Part shown: positions 4,839 to 23,918 of the stretch, in pieces
Position numbering within the stretch: the first letter of the stretch is position 1
Layout: each line of letters opens with the position of its first letter
Program-made: the position numbers and the translations under genes
Notes under the pieces: generated by a model
Told to the model about the DNA's origin: nothing
The model's database searches: none
Seen by the model: the letters and a program-made list of their open reading frames with translations, nothing else
DNA from: a virus
Reading direction: 5' to 3' (one strand)
Virus record (IMG/VR): IMGVR_UViG_3300034159_000078
Coordinates: 1 to 23,918 of that record
Length of the DNA stretch: 23,918 nucleotides

Positions 4839-5366
4839 ATGACCAAAATTAATTCTTGGGTCGCTCGCTTAGTTGTTGCCGCCCTTTCCAGCGTTGAAGC
4901 CTTCTTTATCTCCAAAATCAAAAGCACCGTTGTACGCGAAGGGCTGCGCAAGTTGTTGCGCCCAATCCAAGACAGTGCTTTGGCTTTTGCCGATGACAAC
5001 CCGCGAAATGATGAACAGTTGGAAGCCATTTGGAAAGGCTTTGCACACATTGAATTGCCGGATTATGCTGAAGGGCAAATTGAAGGGGCAATTGCAAAAA
5101 TTGGCGATGAAAACGTGCGAACCGTGCTTTCAACCCTTTCGCACCCAATCGTCAACATGCTCCGCCTTGTAACGGATGAAGACCCGAACAATGAAGTTCA
5201 GTTGAAAATCATGCTGAAGGCGTTTGTTTCAGACCCGCAAAACCAAAAGGTTTTGATTGAGAACGTTATTGTTCCGTTGATTGAAGCCAAAGTGAAGGAC
5301 GAATCCTTGCGGGCTTGGCTTATTGACCTAATCCGCAACGGCTTGTTTGCGGACGGACAGGTTTAA
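4839..5366 (+). CDS. Helical protein with internal duplication, unknown function
   Basis: I do not recognise this 175-aa protein. It looks almost fully helical. Two segments resemble each other: about residues 52-97, with NPRNDEQLEAIWKGF, and about 113-161, with DPNNEVQLKIMLKAF. Each ends in a DE(N/S)(V/L)R block. Residues 1-30 form an amphipathic helix (WVARLVVAALSSVEAFF) that might contact membrane, but no clear signal peptide is present. It has its own candidate promoter upstream and a terminator directly after, so it may be a monocistronic unit in the late region. Confidence 0.7.
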   Translation: MTKINSWVARLVVAALSSVEAFFISKIKSTVVREGLRKLLRPIQDSALAFADDNPRNDEQLEAIWKGFAHIELPDYAEGQIEGAIAKIGDENVRTVLSTLSHPIVNMLRLVTDEDPNNEVQLKIMLKAFVSDPQNQKVLIENVIVPLIEAKVKDESLRAWLIDLIRNGLFADGQV

Positions 5367-5400
5367 TTGCCGCCCAATAGTACCAATTCAAGGTTTACAA

Positions 5401-5440
5401 AATAAGCCGCCCCGCTTTCTTGGCGGTGCGGCTTATTTCA
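5401..5440 (+). terminator. Intrinsic terminator after 4839-5366
   Basis: A perfect 10-bp outer stem pairs AATAAGCCGC (5401-5410) with GCGGCTTATT (5428-5437), with further GC-rich inner pairing, followed by TTTCATTTT. The symmetric AT flanks could let it work in both directions. Confidence 0.75.
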
Positions 5441-7567: not shown

Positions 7568-7628
7568 TTGGCCTGAATATTGCAACAAAGTAATTTGGAA
7601 AAAGGCTCTTTGAAGGGAGCTGAAAAGC
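7568..7628 (+). other. Gene-free leader to terminator with small hairpin
   Basis: This stretch holds a near promoter-like TAATTTGG (7591-7598), one base short of the TAnnTTTG rule, and a small hairpin pairing GCTC with GAGC just before the terminator. No ORF is supported. Confidence 0.4.
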
Positions 7629-7666
7629 AGCCGTTCCCGCCATAAGTTGGCGGGGGCGGCTTTTTT
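7629..7666 (+). terminator. Strong intrinsic terminator closing the late block
   Basis: AGCCG-tt-CCCGCC (7629-7641) pairs with GGCGGG-gg-CGGCT (7649-7661) around a 7-nt loop and a 2x2 internal bulge, followed by T6. It separates the late/accessory block from the next promoter. Confidence 0.9.
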
Positions 7667-7728
7667 ATTTGAAAAAAAGTTTGCGTTGCAAGCCGTTGGT
7701 TTTCAGTGTTTTGCAAATAAATTAAAAC

Positions 7729-7758
7729 AAGCCTGAAAATAATTATTCAAAAAGGCTT
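7729..7758 (+). promoter_or_regulatory. Dyad overlapping the -33 box (operator candidate)
   Basis: AAGCCT (7729-7734) and AGGCTT (7753-7758) form an inverted repeat around an AT-rich, partly symmetric 18-bp core. The right arm overlaps the TTG of the -33 box at 7757-7759. Confidence 0.4.
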
Positions 7759-7786
7759 GGTGAATTGGTTTGTGTAGTTACCTTTG
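7757..7786 (+). promoter_or_regulatory. Bacteroidetes-type promoter, early block
   Basis: The -7 box TACCTTTG (7779-7786) matches TAnnTTTG, and a TTG (7757-7759) lies 19 bp upstream. The box sits inside GTTAC-cttt-GTAAC (7777-7790), a dyad that a repressor could use. An 18-bp block around it, 7775-7792, recurs exactly at 13483-13500. Confidence 0.85.
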
Positions 7787-7815
7787 TAACCACAAGCGAA
7801 GGGAATAACACTAAA

Positions 7816-9052: not shown

Positions 9053-10141
9053 ATGGCACACCAATTGGATTTTCAAAAAGGCAGCGCAGGTTTCGTTTCT
9101 TATAAAACCCCGGCTTGGCACGGGCTTGGGAAGGTTATTGAAACAGAAATGAGCGTTGAACAGGCAATCAAATTTGCAAACCTTGACTTCACGGTTGGCA
9201 AACTTCCAAACATTCACCGCATTCAGACCGGGCAATATGACGCAGAAGGCAAAGCGGAGGTTTTGGACATTCAAACGGGCAAAAGTTTCTTCACATACAG
9301 AACCGACACCAACCTTGTTCTTGGTGACCGTTTGGGCGCGACTTATCAAGTTATTCAAAATGAAGAAGCCCTTTCTGTTTGCGATACGTTGGTTCAACAA
9401 GGCGGGTTGGTTATTGAAACAGCGGGCAGTTTGTTTGACGGCCGGACGGTTTTCATGTGCTGCCGTTTGCCCGAGCCTATGTAGGTTTCAGGAACGGACA
9501 AGGTGAACCAATATGTGATGATTGCAGCCGGGCATGATGGGGGAACGCCTATTTTGGCTTATTTCACTTCAGTAAGGGTTGTTTGCAACAATACGCTTCA
9601 AATGAGCCTGAACGGTGCTGTTCAAAAGCACAGCATTCGCCACACACGCAGCGCAAAAAGCCGCTTGGATGAAGCGTTGAAAATCATGGGGCTTGTGGCC
9701 AAAAACCAAGCCGTTGCAGGTGAAGTGTTTGACCAGATGGCGCAAACAAAGTTGGCACAAAACGATTTTTGGAACTATTTGGGCAACGTGTTCTTCAGCG
9801 GCGAAGAAGTAAAAGCATTGCGTGAAGGTGGAAGGCCAACGGACATTATTTCAACGCGCAAAACAAACGTGATGAACGAGGTTCTTGCGTTCGCACAAAA
9901 CGGGGTTGGGCAGGCTGAAGCAAACCCCGGAAGTGCTTGGTGGGCGTACAATGCCGTGACGGGGTACTTCAGCAACAAAAAGGCGGATGACCCGAATGAC
10001 CGCATGCAAAGCCTTCTTTGGGGTTCTGCTTCCGTAACAATGGAACGCGCATTGCAGTTGGCTTCAAAGCCTGAAAGCATAGTTGCGCTGAAGAACAAAA
10101 GCCTTGCAGGAAATATGGATTACCAATTCAATCAGAATTAA
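9053..10141 (+). pseudogene. DUF932 (TIGR03299-like) phage protein interrupted by in-frame amber
   Basis: Two ORFs in the same frame, 9053-9484 (143 aa) and 9485-10141 (about 218 aa, first internal ATG/GTG near 9503), read as one continuous DUF932 / phage-plasmid TIGR03299-like protein of about 362 residues, a usual length for that family. The first part has the typical N-terminal KTPAWHGLG motif; the second has VRVVCNNTLQ, also typical. The only break is TAG at 9482-9484, between PEPM and VSGTDKVNQYV, within the conserved core. A one-base change from TAT or TAC would restore Tyr. No frameshift exists. Explanations are a real nonsense mutation, readthrough, suppression in the host, or an assembly error. 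The family is widespread in phages and plasmids and its biochemical role is unclear. Confidence 0.8.
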
Positions 10142-13464: not shown

Positions 13465-13494
13465 TTTGGTGAATTAAATAATTAGTTACCTTTG
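13465..13494 (+). promoter_or_regulatory. Bacteroidetes-type promoter, recombination block
   Basis: TTTG (13465-13468) and TACCTTTG (13487-13494) are separated by 18 bp. The block 13483-13500 is identical to 7775-7792, including GTTAC-N4-GTAAC over the -7 box, and TTGGTGAATT (13466-13475) is also shared. It should drive 13545 onward, including recT. Confidence 0.85.
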
Positions 13495-13520
13495 TAACCA
13501 GTTCAGAAAAAAGGAAAATT

Positions 13521-20814: not shown

Positions 20815-21158
20815 ACAAGATTCTGACTTTTTTGGGGCTTCTGCTTTGCTTTGGCGTTTCGGCACAAAGCGAAGGAAGCGAACGCGCCTACCTTTCCAAG
20901 CAGGGAATTTGGGGGACTTCATTGGATGTTGAAGAAACGTTGATTTCAGTGCGCTTTATTGAAGCAGAAGAAGGGTTGTATTTGGTGATTCAAAATTGGG
21001 CAATGCAGGATGAATGCTTTAATGAACTGGATGAAGAAGAATACTTTCTAAGCATTGGAATGATGCCAAAAGGTTTGGATGCGGGCAAAAAGATTGTATT
21101 CAGGGTGAAAGAATGTATTTCACTTGATGCGATTTTTTATTTTGATTTTATAAGGTAA
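20811..21158 (+). CDS. Small secreted acidic protein
   Basis: ATG 20811 overlaps the stop of the previous gene and gives a signal peptide (MNKILTFLGLLLCFGVSAQ, cleavage about residue 19); a longer in-frame frame upstream has no signal. The mature protein of about 96 residues is acidic and strand-rich with two cysteines. It is not recognised. It is the last gene before the RNA-rich gap, and a promoter follows 4 nt after its stop. Confidence 0.65.
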   Translation: MNKILTFLGLLLCFGVSAQSEGSERAYLSKQGIWGTSLDVEETLISVRFIEAEEGLYLVIQNWAMQDECFNELDEEEYFLSIGMMPKGLDAGKKIVFRVKECISLDAIFYFDFIR

Positions 21159-21170
21159 AACATACCTTTG
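21141..21170 (+). promoter_or_regulatory. Bacteroidetes-type promoter P1 (short RNA)
   Basis: TTTG (21141-21144) and TACCTTTG (21163-21170) are 18 bp apart. The -33 box lies inside the end of the preceding gene. It would produce a transcript of roughly 60 nt that ends at the terminator 21198-21235. It lacks the TAGT extension of the other three TACCTTTG promoters. Confidence 0.75.
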
Positions 21171-21197
21171 TAAAAGTTTTTCATAGGGAGAAACCTT

Positions 21198-21235
21198 AGT
21201 TTGGGCGGAGGTTCAGAAGCCGCCCAAACTTTTTT
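21198..21235 (+). terminator. Intrinsic terminator T1
   Basis: AGTTTGGGCGG (21198-21208) pairs perfectly over 11 bp with CCGCCCAAACT (21220-21230), followed by a T tract. It lies about 28 nt after the P1 -7 box, so P1 either makes a very short RNA or this is an attenuator. Confidence 0.9.
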
Positions 21236-21243
21236 GAATGGTT

Positions 21244-21257
21244 CAGGCTTTTGCCTG
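21244..21257 (+). other. Small perfect hairpin
   Basis: CAGGC-tttt-GCCTG forms a 5-bp stem with a UUUU loop between T1 and RNA B. It has no T tract, so it is not a terminator. Confidence 0.5.
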
Positions 21258-21281
21258 TTGAAGATAAAAACACACAATAAA

Positions 21282-21379
21282 GCCCGGTTGCGGCTTTTCC
21301 AGAAGTACAATGGAATAACTGATGGGCGATTGCAACGCTTGTTGGTGAAAGGTTGCAACCGGGCAAAAGAGACTGTACT
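21282..21379 (+). ncRNA. Candidate structured RNA B with possible pseudoknot
   Basis: A perfect 10-bp closing stem pairs GCCCGGTTGC (21282-21291) with GCAACCGGGC (21355-21364). Inside are hairpins TTCCA/TGGAA (21297-21301 with 21311-21315) and GCG/CGC (21326-21328 with 21336-21338), giving a three-way junction. The loop of the first hairpin contains AGTACA (21304-21309), complementary to TGTACT (21374-21379) just after the closing stem: a 6-bp pseudoknot. Terminator T2 follows 36 nt later. No promoter of the usual type lies directly before it, so it may come from readthrough of T1 or an unseen promoter. No known RNA family is recognised. Confidence 0.5.
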
Positions 21380-21414
21380 CGAAAGATTGTTTTCATTTGG
21401 TTTTTTAGGGTTTG

Positions 21415-21448
21415 CCGTTGAAGTAGCAATGCTTCAGCGGTTTTTTTT
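21415..21448 (+). terminator. Intrinsic terminator T2
   Basis: CCGTTGAAG (21415-21423) pairs with CTTCAGCGG (21432-21440), 9 bp with one G-T wobble and an 8-nt loop, followed by T8. Promoter P3 begins 12 nt further on. Confidence 0.9.
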
Positions 21449-21459
21449 GCATAAAAAGT

Positions 21460-21489
21460 TTTGCGGTTTCGTTTTTGTAGTTACCTTTG
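21460..21489 (+). promoter_or_regulatory. Bacteroidetes-type promoter P3, replication block
   Basis: TTTG (21460-21463) and TACCTTTG (21482-21489) are 18 bp apart. TAGTTACCTTTGT (21478-21490) is identical to the promoters at 7775 and 13483. The right half of the dyad is lost here (GTTCC instead of GTAAC). Confidence 0.8.
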
Positions 21490-21495
21490 TTCCTG

Positions 21496-21654
21496 TCAAG
21501 AAGTTGGCCCGGATTGGAAACCCGGAAGAAAAGGCTGAACATACTGTTTTTTTCATTTGCGCTTTTAAAGGCGCGGGCTACAATGGGGTTTTACAGCCTC
21601 CCCGTTTGAAGGACTTCCAACCCTTCCCCGCACCTTTAGAGGCGCATTTTTTTT
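21496..21654 (+). ncRNA. Structured leader RNA A / attenuator of the replication operon
   Basis: Starting about 7 nt after the P3 -7 box, this leader of about 160 nt ends in a T8 tract. Its main stem pairs 21558-21577 with 21627-21646: 19 of 20 positions pair, two as G-U, with one C-A mismatch. The 49-nt loop holds GGGG/CCCC (21585-21588 with 21600-21603) and GAAGG/CCTTC (21608-21612 with 21622-21626), making a three-way junction. The second hairpin stacks directly on the 3' arm. Upstream GCCCG (near 21507) could pair with CGGGC (near 21574) and break the stem base, a possible antiterminator. It ends 19 nt before the zinc-ribbon gene. No known riboswitch is recognised. Confidence 0.6.
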
Positions 21655-21673
21655 GGGCAAAAACGAAAATATC

Positions 21674-21895
21674 ATGACTGTAACAATTCCAGACCGCGAA
21701 CAACATGAAGGCATTTTTTCTGTGACACTTGAAATTCCAGACAAATGCCCAAAATGCGGCGCAAAACGTGGAACTAAGGTTTGGCAAGGGCTTTCTTATG
21801 ATGGAAGCAGAAGATTGCATGTAACGCAATGGGAAAACGAATGCGGCCACATTGACAAATATGCTGAAGTAAGAAAGGAAATGAAATTGAATTAG
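21674..21895 (+). CDS. Small zinc-ribbon protein
   Basis: ATG 21674 was chosen because an upstream TTG start would lie inside the T8 tract of the leader. The 73-aa product has CPKCG (Cys25, Cys28) and ECGH (Cys57, His59), a single zinc-ribbon-like site with a strand-rich spacer. It is the first gene after leader RNA A and precedes the replication initiator by 18 nt. Its TAG stop is in frame with the initiator. A regulatory or replication-accessory role is likely from position only. Confidence 0.65.
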   Translation: MTVTIPDREQHEGIFSVTLEIPDKCPKCGAKRGTKVWQGLSYDGSRRLHVTQWENECGHIDKYAEVRKEMKLN

Positions 21896-21913
21896 TTTTT
21901 AATCCCTGCAAAA

Positions 21914-22750
21914 ATGGCTGACCTTACATTCACAACTATTGAAGAAAGCGCACGGGCTGAACTTGCAATAAGCCGTGATGAATATGCGCTTTGCAACTAT
22001 GTTCAAACATGGGCTTCACACCCGCAAAACAGAAGGCCGGGGTGGTGCAATAGAACAAAGGAACAAACGGCTGCATTTGTAGGCATTACGCCGAGGGGGG
22101 TGCAATTGATGCTGAAGAAAATGCAAAAAATTGGCCTTATTGAAAGGTATTCCACCACACTTTTCCTGCACCGAATTACTGAAAAATGGTTTGATACGGT
22201 AACGCTTGCAAAGCAATGCCGAAAGGGTGAAGAAAGTTCACCTTTTGGGGTGAAGAAAGTTCACCCTTCAGGTGAAGAAAGTTCACCTCTCAGGGTGAAG
22301 AAAGTTCACCCACATAAGGAATTTAATAACTCCCCTATTAAGAGTGGGGAAAACGCACCCACACAACCGGGGGCTTTTGTTCTTCAGAAGAAAGTTGAAA
22401 CGGCAGATGAAGCGGAGGGGTTGATAATGGCATGGGCAGAAGGTGAAGGCCGGGAAACGGTGCGTTCATGGTATTCAAACGCATACAGGAAATGCACGGT
22501 TGCTGATGTGAAGAAAATGGTGCAAGAATTCGTGCATGCTTATTTGACAATTGGGGATGCCGGGAAGCGTGAACGAATGGAACGCGACCCATTGCAGTGC
22601 TTCAAGTATTCCTTCAAGGTGTTTCTTACAAGGCAGGCGGGTTTTGAAAGGCAGGCTGAAGAAAAGAAAACAGCACAAAACGGGCAAAACAAAGAAGCCA
22701 TTTATGAAAGCCCTGTAATTCCAGTTTTCACAAGTAAAAGCGGCAACTAA
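21914..22750 (+). CDS. Winged-helix replication initiator carrying the origin
   Basis: The 278-aa protein has a helix-turn-helix / winged-helix N-terminal domain (about residues 20-95; TKEQTAAFVGITPRGVQLMLKKMQKIGLIERYS looks like recognition helix plus wing, here residues 48-80). A linker at 105-135 is encoded by the four iterons, and a helical C-terminal part (about 155-255) follows. This matches the plan of phage initiators such as lambda O: DNA-binding domain, linker encoded by ori, then helicase-recruiting domain. DnaB follows 2 nt after the stop. It should bind the iterons, open the AT-rich DNA beside them and load the helicase. Family membership is by architecture, not by a named motif; a DnaD-like primosome protein is the alternative. 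Confidence 0.75.
   Translation: MADLTFTTIEESARAELAISRDEYALCNYVQTWASHPQNRRPGWCNRTKEQTAAFVGITPRGVQLMLKKMQKIGLIERYSTTLFLHRITEKWFDTVTLAKQCRKGEESSPFGVKKVHPSGEESSPLRVKKVHPHKEFNNSPIKSGENAPTQPGAFVLQKKVETADEAEGLIMAWAEGEGRETVRSWYSNAYRKCTVADVKKMVQEFVHAYLTIGDAGKRERMERDPLQCFKYSFKVFLTRQAGFERQAEEKKTAQNGQNKEAIYESPVIPVFTSKSGN
22226..22310 (+). repeat. Four palindromic iterons, candidate replication origin
   Basis: GGTGAAGAAAGTTCACC occurs exactly at 22226-22242, 22249-22265, 22271-22287 and 22294-22310. Each unit is a 6-bp inverted repeat (GGTGAA/TTCACC) around GAAAG. Start-to-start steps are 23, 22 and 23 bp. Copies 2 and 4 extend by one more G/C pair. They lie in the initiator gene and are read in alternating frames. 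Confidence 0.85.
22311..22350 (+). other. AT-rich segment and hairpin beside the iterons
   Basis: The DNA after the fourth iteron is richer in A and T (ATAAGGAATTTAATAA) and contains TCCCC/GGGGA (22331-22335 with 22346-22350). In lambda-type origins the strand opening occurs in an AT-rich segment next to the iterons, so this is the candidate unwinding site. Confidence 0.45.
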
Positions 22751-22752
22751 AA

Positions 22753-23918
22753 ATGGAAAGTTCTACACAGCAAAACAGGCAACAACCAAACAGGAATTCA
22801 AAAAGAAGAAATGAAGTTGAAAACGATTCACTTTCAAACTTTGTATTTGGAAAAGTTCAACCACAGGCTTTGCCACTTGAAGAAGCTGTATTGGGCGCAC
22901 TTATGTTGGACAGGGAGGTTTTACCAAACATCATTGAAATCCTGAAGGTTGAAAGTTTTTACAAAGAAGCGCACCAAAAAATCTATCAGGCAATCATAAA
23001 CCTGTACAACAAAAGCGATGCAATTGATTTGCTTACTGTTACGGAAAGGATTGCTTTTGAAGGAAACCTTGAAGCCGTTGGGGGCGGTTACTACCTTGTT
23101 GAACTTTCAAACCGTGTTGCTTCAGCGGCAAATGTTGAATACCATGCACGGATAATTCAACAGAAGTACATTCAGCGGCAAATTATTTCAATAAGCACCC
23201 AAAACATACGGGAAGCGTATGAAGATACAACGGATGCGCTTGAACTGCTTGAAAGGGCAGAAGTTGAAATTCTTGGAATCAGGGATGCACAGGTTGGGCA
23301 GGAACACAAGATGCCTGAATTGGCAGTTAGGGTTTTGAAAGACCTTGAAATGCGTTCTTCAAAGACGGGGTTGATTGGTGTTCCTTCAGGGTTTAGGGAT
23401 TTGGACGCAAAAACAAGCGGGTTTCAAAATTCTGACTTGATTATTGTTGCCGGAAGGCCCGGTTCAGGAAAAACGGGTTGGGCTTTATCCGTTGCCCTGA
23501 ATGCCGCTGTTTACCAAAAAAAGCCCATTGGCTTCTTTTCGCTTGAAATGAGTGCTGACCAACTGTTCATGCGGCTTGTAAGCATGGTTGCAGAAGTGAA
23601 CAGTGAAAAATTGAAGTGTGGAACGCTGGAAGATTGGGAATGGGAAAAGGTTGGCCGGGCAATAGAACTTCTTTCAAATGCGCCGATTCACATTGACGAC
23701 ACGGCAGCTTTGAACATTATGGATTTGCGGGCAAGGGCAAGAAGAATGAAACAGCAGTTTGGAATTGAAACGGTTATTGTGGATTATTTGCAGTTGATGA
23801 CGGGAACAAGGGAATTTGGTGGAAACCGGGAACAAGAAATTGCTTCAATTTCAAGGGGGTTGAAAGCCCTTGCTAAACAATTGAACGTTCCAGTAATTGC
23901 GCTTGCACAACTAAGCCG
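22753..23918 (+). CDS. dnaB: Replicative DNA helicase DnaB, 3' partial
   Basis: The frame starts at ATG 22753, two bases after the initiator stop, and runs off the window after 388 codons. The N-terminal domain (LPLEEAVLGALMLD, about residues 40-150) is typical for DnaB. The RecA-like motor has Walker A GRPGSGKT at 234-241, FFSLEMS, and Walker B-like VIVDYLQLM with Asp344. DnaB is the hexameric 5'-3' helicase that opens the fork and recruits primase. The missing part should hold only the last 60-100 residues. A phage-coded DnaB next to its initiator may remove the need for a separate helicase loader; none is visible. Confidence 0.95.
   Translation, partial: MESSTQQNRQQPNRNSKRRNEVENDSLSNFVFGKVQPQALPLEEAVLGALMLDREVLPNIIEILKVESFYKEAHQKIYQAIINLYNKSDAIDLLTVTERIAFEGNLEAVGGGYYLVELSNRVASAANVEYHARIIQQKYIQRQIISISTQNIREAYEDTTDALELLERAEVEILGIRDAQVGQEHKMPELAVRVLKDLEMRSSKTGLIGVPSGFRDLDAKTSGFQNSDLIIVAGRPGSGKTGWALSVALNAAVYQKKPIGFFSLEMSADQLFMRLVSMVAEVNSEKLKCGTLEDWEWEKVGRAIELLSNAPIHIDDTAALNIMDLRARARRMKQQFGIETVIVDYLQLMTGTREFGGNREQEIASISRGLKALAKQLNVPVIALAQLS

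Follow-up and report, generated by a model that had tools for sequence, protein, structure and literature searches.

What lies between the replication genes of an uncultivated virus and the genes that precede them, and does it act on their expression as RNA? The question arises from the IMG/VR virus record IMGVR_UViG_3300034159_000078, a sequence of 23,918 bases that was analysed over its whole length (hereafter, the window) and whose largest gap without genes (21159-21673, 515 bases) divides the upstream gene run from a replication operon. At the downstream end of this gap, before the operon, sits a segment that a preliminary description took for a structured leader RNA controlling the replication genes. 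The expression signals of the record are of the Bacteroidota type and, judged by them, the host looks like a Bacteroidota-type bacterium. We find that the leader structure, referred to below as leader B or RNA B, is real, strongly structured and unusual in form, and that it stands at a place where it ought to matter; that it acts as a switch is a conjecture.

The replication operon

Three genes follow the gap:

21674-21895, + strand: zinc-ribbon-like protein, 73 aa, first gene past the leader (phrog_9089, E 5.5e-9)
21914-22750, + strand: O-like replication initiator, with four iterons (phrog_345, E 1.4e-4)
22753-23916, + strand: DnaB-type replicative helicase, running past the record end (Pfam DnaB_C, E 8.7e-66)

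The genes 3' of the leader had been described as replication genes, and the profile matches of the O-like initiator and of DnaB bear this out. The zinc-ribbon-like protein also gave a weak match to Pfam RUBY_RBDX, under the cut-off; its ATG at 21674 has A at -3 and -6 and lies in open, A-rich surroundings directly past a T8 tract. Inside the initiator gene, the iteron GGTGAAGAAAGTTCACC occurs in four perfect 17-bp copies, at 22226, 22249, 22271 and 22294 (22226-22310), and the iterons make up a lambda-like origin; the same repeats give the strongest fold of the whole record. Elsewhere in the record, two consecutive ORFs, 9053-9484 and 9503-10141, resemble one gene split in two (9053-10141), the second of them matching phrog_1221 only from profile position 161 onward.

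The promoter and the predicted leader RNA

Between the upstream genes and the operon, the following features make up what we call unit B:

21460-21489, + strand: promoter of unit B, with TTTG at 21460-21463, N18, and TACCTTTG at 21482-21489 (consensus match)
21495-21654, + strand: predicted leader RNA B, ~160 nt (placed by the promoter and the T8 tract)
21508-21525, + strand: small hairpin P0, with a CCGG stem and its loop at 21513-21521 (the hairpin itself is weak)
21558-21577, + strand: 5' arm of the closing stem P1, containing the near-palindrome GCGCTTTTAAAGGCGC at 21559-21574 (from the fold)
21582-21606, + strand: hairpin P2 of a three-way junction, 7 bp with an 11-nt loop (from the fold)
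21608-21626, + strand: hairpin P3 of the three-way junction, 5 bp with a 9-nt loop (from the fold)
21627-21646, + strand: 3' arm of the closing stem P1, containing the near-palindrome GCACCTTTAGAGGCGC at 21630-21645 (from the fold)
21647-21654, + strand: T8 tract, where RNA B is predicted to stop (from the sequence)

The consensus of the Bacteroidota primary sigma factor, in the sections of the sources that we draw on, consists of -33/-7 elements of the form TTTG/TAnnTTTG (PMC7366714, PMC6847099; also PMC9723704), and the promoter that had been proposed ahead of the RNA fits it well, with TTTG, an 18-nt spacer and TACCTTTG. From this motif, RNA B would start at about 21494-21496. Over the record, TACCTTTG is found in four copies on the + strand and in none on the - strand, where 0.33 are expected per strand. 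From 21490 as far as the first ATG (21674), neither strand matches the promoter consensus TANNTTTG, which leaves read-through as the way into the replication genes, provided that the scan has missed no promoter; nor does the minus strand hold a match from 18708 to the record end, in a scan that covers this promoter type only. At 7777-7790 and 13485-13498, a perfect palindrome, GTTACCTTTGTAAC, overlaps the -7 element of two promoters (two of the TACCTTTG copies), where it is possibly an operator for a repressor; at the two promoters of the gap (21480 and 21161) this palindrome is degenerate.

The fold itself was recovered much as first described. The main stem, P1, pairs 19 of its 20 positions (two of them as G-U) around a C.A mismatch at 21572/21632, and it encloses two hairpins, P2, which has one further G-U pair, and P3, so that the core (21558-21646) is a three-way junction. 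The T8 tract abuts the stem without a gap and leaves 19 nt to the ATG, and RNA B would be expected to end there, at 21654. The G+C-rich base of P1 (TGCGC/GCGCA) followed by T8 is the arrangement of an intrinsic terminator; a scan for terminators of the usual hairpin form (loop of 3-8 nt) did not list 21558-21654, because its loop is far larger than that of ordinary terminators. The loop of P0 (UUGGAA) is complementary to that of P3 (UUCCAA) over 6 bp, which is no more than suggestive of a kissing or docking contact; when 20,000 sets of loops were drawn at random, 1.2% showed a complementarity of this kind in at least one of the three loop pairs. Unit B is also flanked by a perfect 11-bp inverted repeat, TTTCGTTTTTG at 21467-21477 and CAAAAACGAAA at 21658-21668, which is T-rich and may be due to chance.

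How unusual the fold is

Folded as 21495-21655, RNA B reaches -57.2 kcal/mol (z -3.31, with 1 of 200 shuffles as stable). The core alone reaches -44.9 kcal/mol (z -5.26, with none of 200 dinucleotide shuffles as stable) and, in an independent repeat, -44.1 kcal/mol (z -5.83, again 0/200). Taken by itself, the 5' part (21495-21557) has no unusual structure (z -0.19, 79/200), and a wider stretch, 21490-21680, gives a z of only -2.86 (2/200 shuffles). Ranked over 15,886 windows of 90 nt, taken from both strands of the record, the core is the second-best locus, behind the origin repeats.

For a broader comparison, the 110 bases 5' of every run of at least seven T were folded in 192 sequences, comprising the window and the loci used for comparison (4.93 Mb, both strands, with some loci overlapping). 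A helix ended at the run in 854 of 1,349 cases, and in 17 of these 854 the closing helix had at least 12 bp and enclosed at least two hairpins; leader B is the extreme of these 17 branched folds, both in energy (-45.1 kcal/mol, the next being -29.5) and in the length of its helix (19 versus 17). T8 tracts are themselves depleted in the record, with two on the + strand where 100 shuffles lead one to expect 7.75; each of the two ends a structured unit in the gap. At 7618-7707, ahead of a promoter at 7757, another intergenic stretch with a T-run also folds very stably (-43.0).

Predicted order of folding and a possible read-through mechanism

A competing pairing upstream had been put forward as a sign of attenuation, and the one that may have been meant is this:

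21506-21579, + strand: candidate competing pairing of GGCCC (21506-21510) with GGGCU (21575-21579), seen in partial transcripts only

In folds of partial transcripts it is predicted only for ends near 21609-21619; the 5' arm forms its own hairpin first, and the closing stem, growing from the junction outward from about 21634, prevails. At full length, structures with the upstream pairing forced reach -37.9 to -40.1 kcal/mol, compared with -57.2, i.e., they are 17-19 kcal/mol worse. The proposed competition is predicted for partial transcripts and is lost in the complete RNA. As in an attenuator or riboswitch, a terminator-like structure does lie between promoter and gene, but the folds contain no mutually exclusive antiterminator of comparable stability. 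This disfavours a simple two-state switch and makes termination the predicted default when no helper acts. The claim that the leader controls the replication operon went further than the evidence, given that we found neither a sensor or ligand nor a leader ORF with a coding signal.

The reading that we favour, at about even chances, is that leader B is a cis-acting leader ending in an unusually large, branched intrinsic terminator, and that the replication genes depend on read-through. To judge by its motif, the promoter at 21460-21489 would set RNA polymerase going at about 21495; the 5' arm would make a small hairpin first, and the emerging 3' arm would, according to the partial-transcript folds, zip outward from the junction until the complete 20-position stem formed against T8 and most transcripts stopped at 21654. 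The zinc-ribbon gene, the O-like initiator and DnaB would be expressed from the fraction that reads through, as suggested by the finding that no further promoter match precedes the ATG; antitermination by the phage or its host might increase this fraction, as might the competing upstream pairing, or the terminator might simply be leaky.

Searches for relatives

No known riboswitch or leader had been recognised in the segment, and Rfam 15 agrees: the window has no match at gathering scores, and a relaxed E-value brings up seven weak matches in 21140-21700, of at most 17.3 bits and all far under their own thresholds. A phi29-type packaging RNA (pRNA) and a 6S-like RNA were both dropped as candidates, neither having an Rfam match. 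Blastn with 21150-23918 in phages and with 21159-21673 in plasmids returned nothing usable, and neither an exact 30-mer of the core nor a gapped 20-base core pattern led to anything usable when scanned in IMG/VR. A keyword search of titles and abstract beginnings in one open-access library likewise brought up no paper on such a leader in Bacteroidota phages.

A covariance model built from one sequence, an insensitive tool whose negatives are weak, was applied to the window together with 38 loci, the remaining 65 of 103 relatives, all of them genome contigs, being left out. It recovered the window itself, with the window's own minus strand as the second match; four matches at 11.9-12.8 bits were taken as chance. 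The same model found nothing in 83 loci, and in overlapping sets of Bacteroidota genomes it matched 0 of 6, 1 of 395, 1 of 390 and 0 of 400. The match in the set of 395 (L107, 26 bits) lies antisense within a gene, presumably grpE, and was rejected as unrelated; that in the set of 390 (L195) is a plain long hairpin between convergent genes, with no two inner hairpins, and is unrelated too. With no homolog, and hence no covariation, there is no sign of conservation for leader B; we regard this lack of homologs as weak evidence.

Searches by gene gave a similar picture. The initiator, searched in IMG/VR viral contigs, in 395 Bacteroidota genomes and, by tblastn, in phages, and a RecT-like protein, searched in IMG/VR viral contigs, yielded nothing usable, and the zinc-ribbon protein led to two distant loci, both without the RNA. 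The iterons had no match in 296 Bacteroidota genomes and no blastn match in phages; a paired iteron 15-mer is present in three other IMG/VR records (L108, L109 and L110). Two of these three records (G401 and G402) encode a related initiator (E 8e-9 and 6e-9), and in both the replication operon is tightly packed, with no gap and no leader of this kind; as they span similar genes, the two may be near-copies and may count as one case. RNA B is therefore not a fixed part of the replication module, and for these two records, whose replication genes are packed gap-free, the idea of a general leader of that module was ruled out. Relatives of DnaB otherwise had no synteny around the replication genes.

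A second unit upstream and the small-RNA alternative

Directly 5' of unit B lies a second unit, A, absent from the preliminary description, with the same layout of promoter, structured RNA and T8:

21141-21170, + strand: promoter of unit A, with TTTG at 21141-21144, N18, and TACCTTTG at 21163-21170 (consensus match)
21198-21235, + strand: perfect 11-bp hairpin and T6, a simple terminator of the preceding genes or an early part of unit A
21282-21364, + strand: long stem-loop of unit A, rich in G-U pairs when read on the + strand (from the fold)
21414-21448, + strand: 12-bp hairpin and T8, end of unit A (terminator scan)

An origin of unit B from A by duplication and divergence was considered and rejected: 18 of 500 shuffle pairs align as well, and against the rest of the record the alignment is not significant, with 6, 104 and 112 of 1,138 stretches scoring at least as high under three scoring schemes.

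The main rival to the terminator leader is that RNA B, and perhaps RNA A too, is a free-standing, trans-acting small RNA that has a promoter and a terminator to itself and whose position ahead of the replication genes is incidental or reflects a second role as leader. A promoter together with an intrinsic end is the signature of high-confidence intergenic small RNAs in Bacteroides, according to those parts of the published account that we use (PMC7366714), and the tandem of two promoter-RNA-T8 units as well as the possible 6-bp contact between the loops of P0 and P3 would suit such RNAs. An absolute terminator, however, would leave the replication genes without any promoter match; conservation was not found, and the two units are not demonstrably related, other parts of the record also aligning to B. 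We thus consider a small RNA of this kind possible, if rather unlikely.

RNA stem or paired DNA palindromes

The G-U pairs of the main stem had been taken to favour an RNA role over a DNA palindrome. This argument proved weak, since the minus strand of the core folds almost equally well (-41.8 kcal/mol, z -3.48) and, with DNA parameters, both strands come out alike (-21.2 and -21.3). The preliminary description also does not mention that the arms of P1 are two copies, 71 bp apart, of a 16-bp near-palindrome with the consensus GCGCCTTTAAAGGCGC, from which they deviate at one and two positions; at up to three mismatches these are its only two matches in the record, with 0.18 expected, a figure that flatters the match because the pattern was picked after the arms had been seen. 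Two palindromes alike in sequence will pair with one another in any case, which makes paired DNA operators a serious rival, next after the small RNA: the arms would be the binding sites of a dimeric regulator, encoded by phage or host, and the RNA stem would be a by-product of the palindromes pairing. The confinement of GCGCCTTTAAAGGCGC to the two arms and the equal DNA-parameter folds speak for such a pair, but the pairing keeps its register past the palindromes, with T-A on the outer side and GGG-CCC on the inner, and abuts T8, P2 and P3 are left unaccounted for, and no more copies of GCGCCTTTAAAGGCGC lie near the record's other promoters, all of which makes it an unlikely explanation.

A better argument for selection at the level of RNA comes from unit A, whose stem-loop is strand-asymmetric (-39.5 on the + strand and -26.4, i.e., 13 kcal/mol weaker, on the - strand). 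It outranks the argument from the G-U pairs of unit B, where the strands lie close together (-44.1 versus -41.8).

Remaining alternatives

Marginally less probable than an operator pair is a new class of phage RNA, in which P1 would be the terminator, kissing between the loops of P3 and P0 would decide on read-through and unit A would be the partner; the docking of the loops might then be driven by an ion, a ligand, a protein or a copy-number-dependent RNA pairing.

We give still less weight to plain insulation, i.e., to a strong terminator that shields the replication operon and the origin with no regulated read-through, the promoter of the replication genes having been missed by the scan. 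Other intergenic gaps do carry large terminator-like hairpins, such as those at 7618-7707 and 5350-5439, and a simple hairpin with T6 is also present at 21198-21235, yet an insulator would have no need of a promoter of its own just ~160 nt upstream.

An overlooked protein gene is hardly credible: a 158-codon open frame does span the gap from TTG 21201 to TGA 21677, with an ATGA overlap with the next start and within an open run of 166 codons that was matched in only 5 of 1,000 shuffles, but it begins with TTG, holds two hairpin-T8 structures and a promoter motif, and scores -0.051 per codon, below all 33 genes tested (-0.027 to 0.197) and inside the spread that wrong frames show (mean -0.105), so that it was dismissed on codon statistics despite its unusual length and the region was treated as non-coding.

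Comparison with known systems

Control of replication by RNA read-through is well known from plasmids and lambdoid phages; in phages of Bacteroidota it has, to our knowledge, been little explored. If leader B, at present a prediction from a single sequence, really stops most transcripts, the timing of phage replication would be set by RNA read-through and not by a repressor alone, and a branched stem set directly against a T-tract would test the limits of size and complexity of terminator hairpins.

With an ordinary Rho-independent terminator, leader B shares the G+C-rich stem base directly before the T-tract (here T8); an ordinary terminator has a short loop, whereas the stem of leader B encloses an interior of 49 nt with two hairpins, which made it an outlier in the survey of T-runs. 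Intergenic small RNAs of Bacteroides, such as GibS, have the same class of promoter and the same end in a hairpin plus T-tract as RNA B. In the part of its description that we rely on, the 5' region of GibS is open and its terminator comes after two meta-stable hairpins, while RNA B is dominated by one branched stem (PMC7366714).

In lambdoid phages, terminators stand before the early genes and are overcome by RNA- or protein-based antitermination and, as with the put RNA of HK022, a structured nascent RNA near an early promoter is combined with terminators ahead of early genes, at least in the excerpts of the source used here (PMC9378689). The put RNA, by the same excerpts, is ~70 nt long, has two stem-loops and suppresses terminators further downstream, whereas leader B itself ends in a T-tract, and the likeness may be read as a functional analogy only.

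The initiator gene repR of the theta plasmid pIP501 is, in those passages of the source on which we draw, preceded by a promoter ~300 bp 5' of it and by a structured leader in which premature termination limits the initiator (PMC4981023). Leader B resembles this attenuation system in its sequence of promoter, structured leader and terminator ahead of a replication initiator. In pIP501, as described there, termination is driven by an antisense RNA (RNAIII); an antisense promoter in leader B, as attenuation of the pIP501/pT181 type would have it, was not found, the minus strand lacking a TANNTTTG match in a scan for this promoter type only. With these differences in mind, leader B would appear, by analogy, to work most like the attenuation leaders of theta-plasmid initiators, such as that of pIP501.
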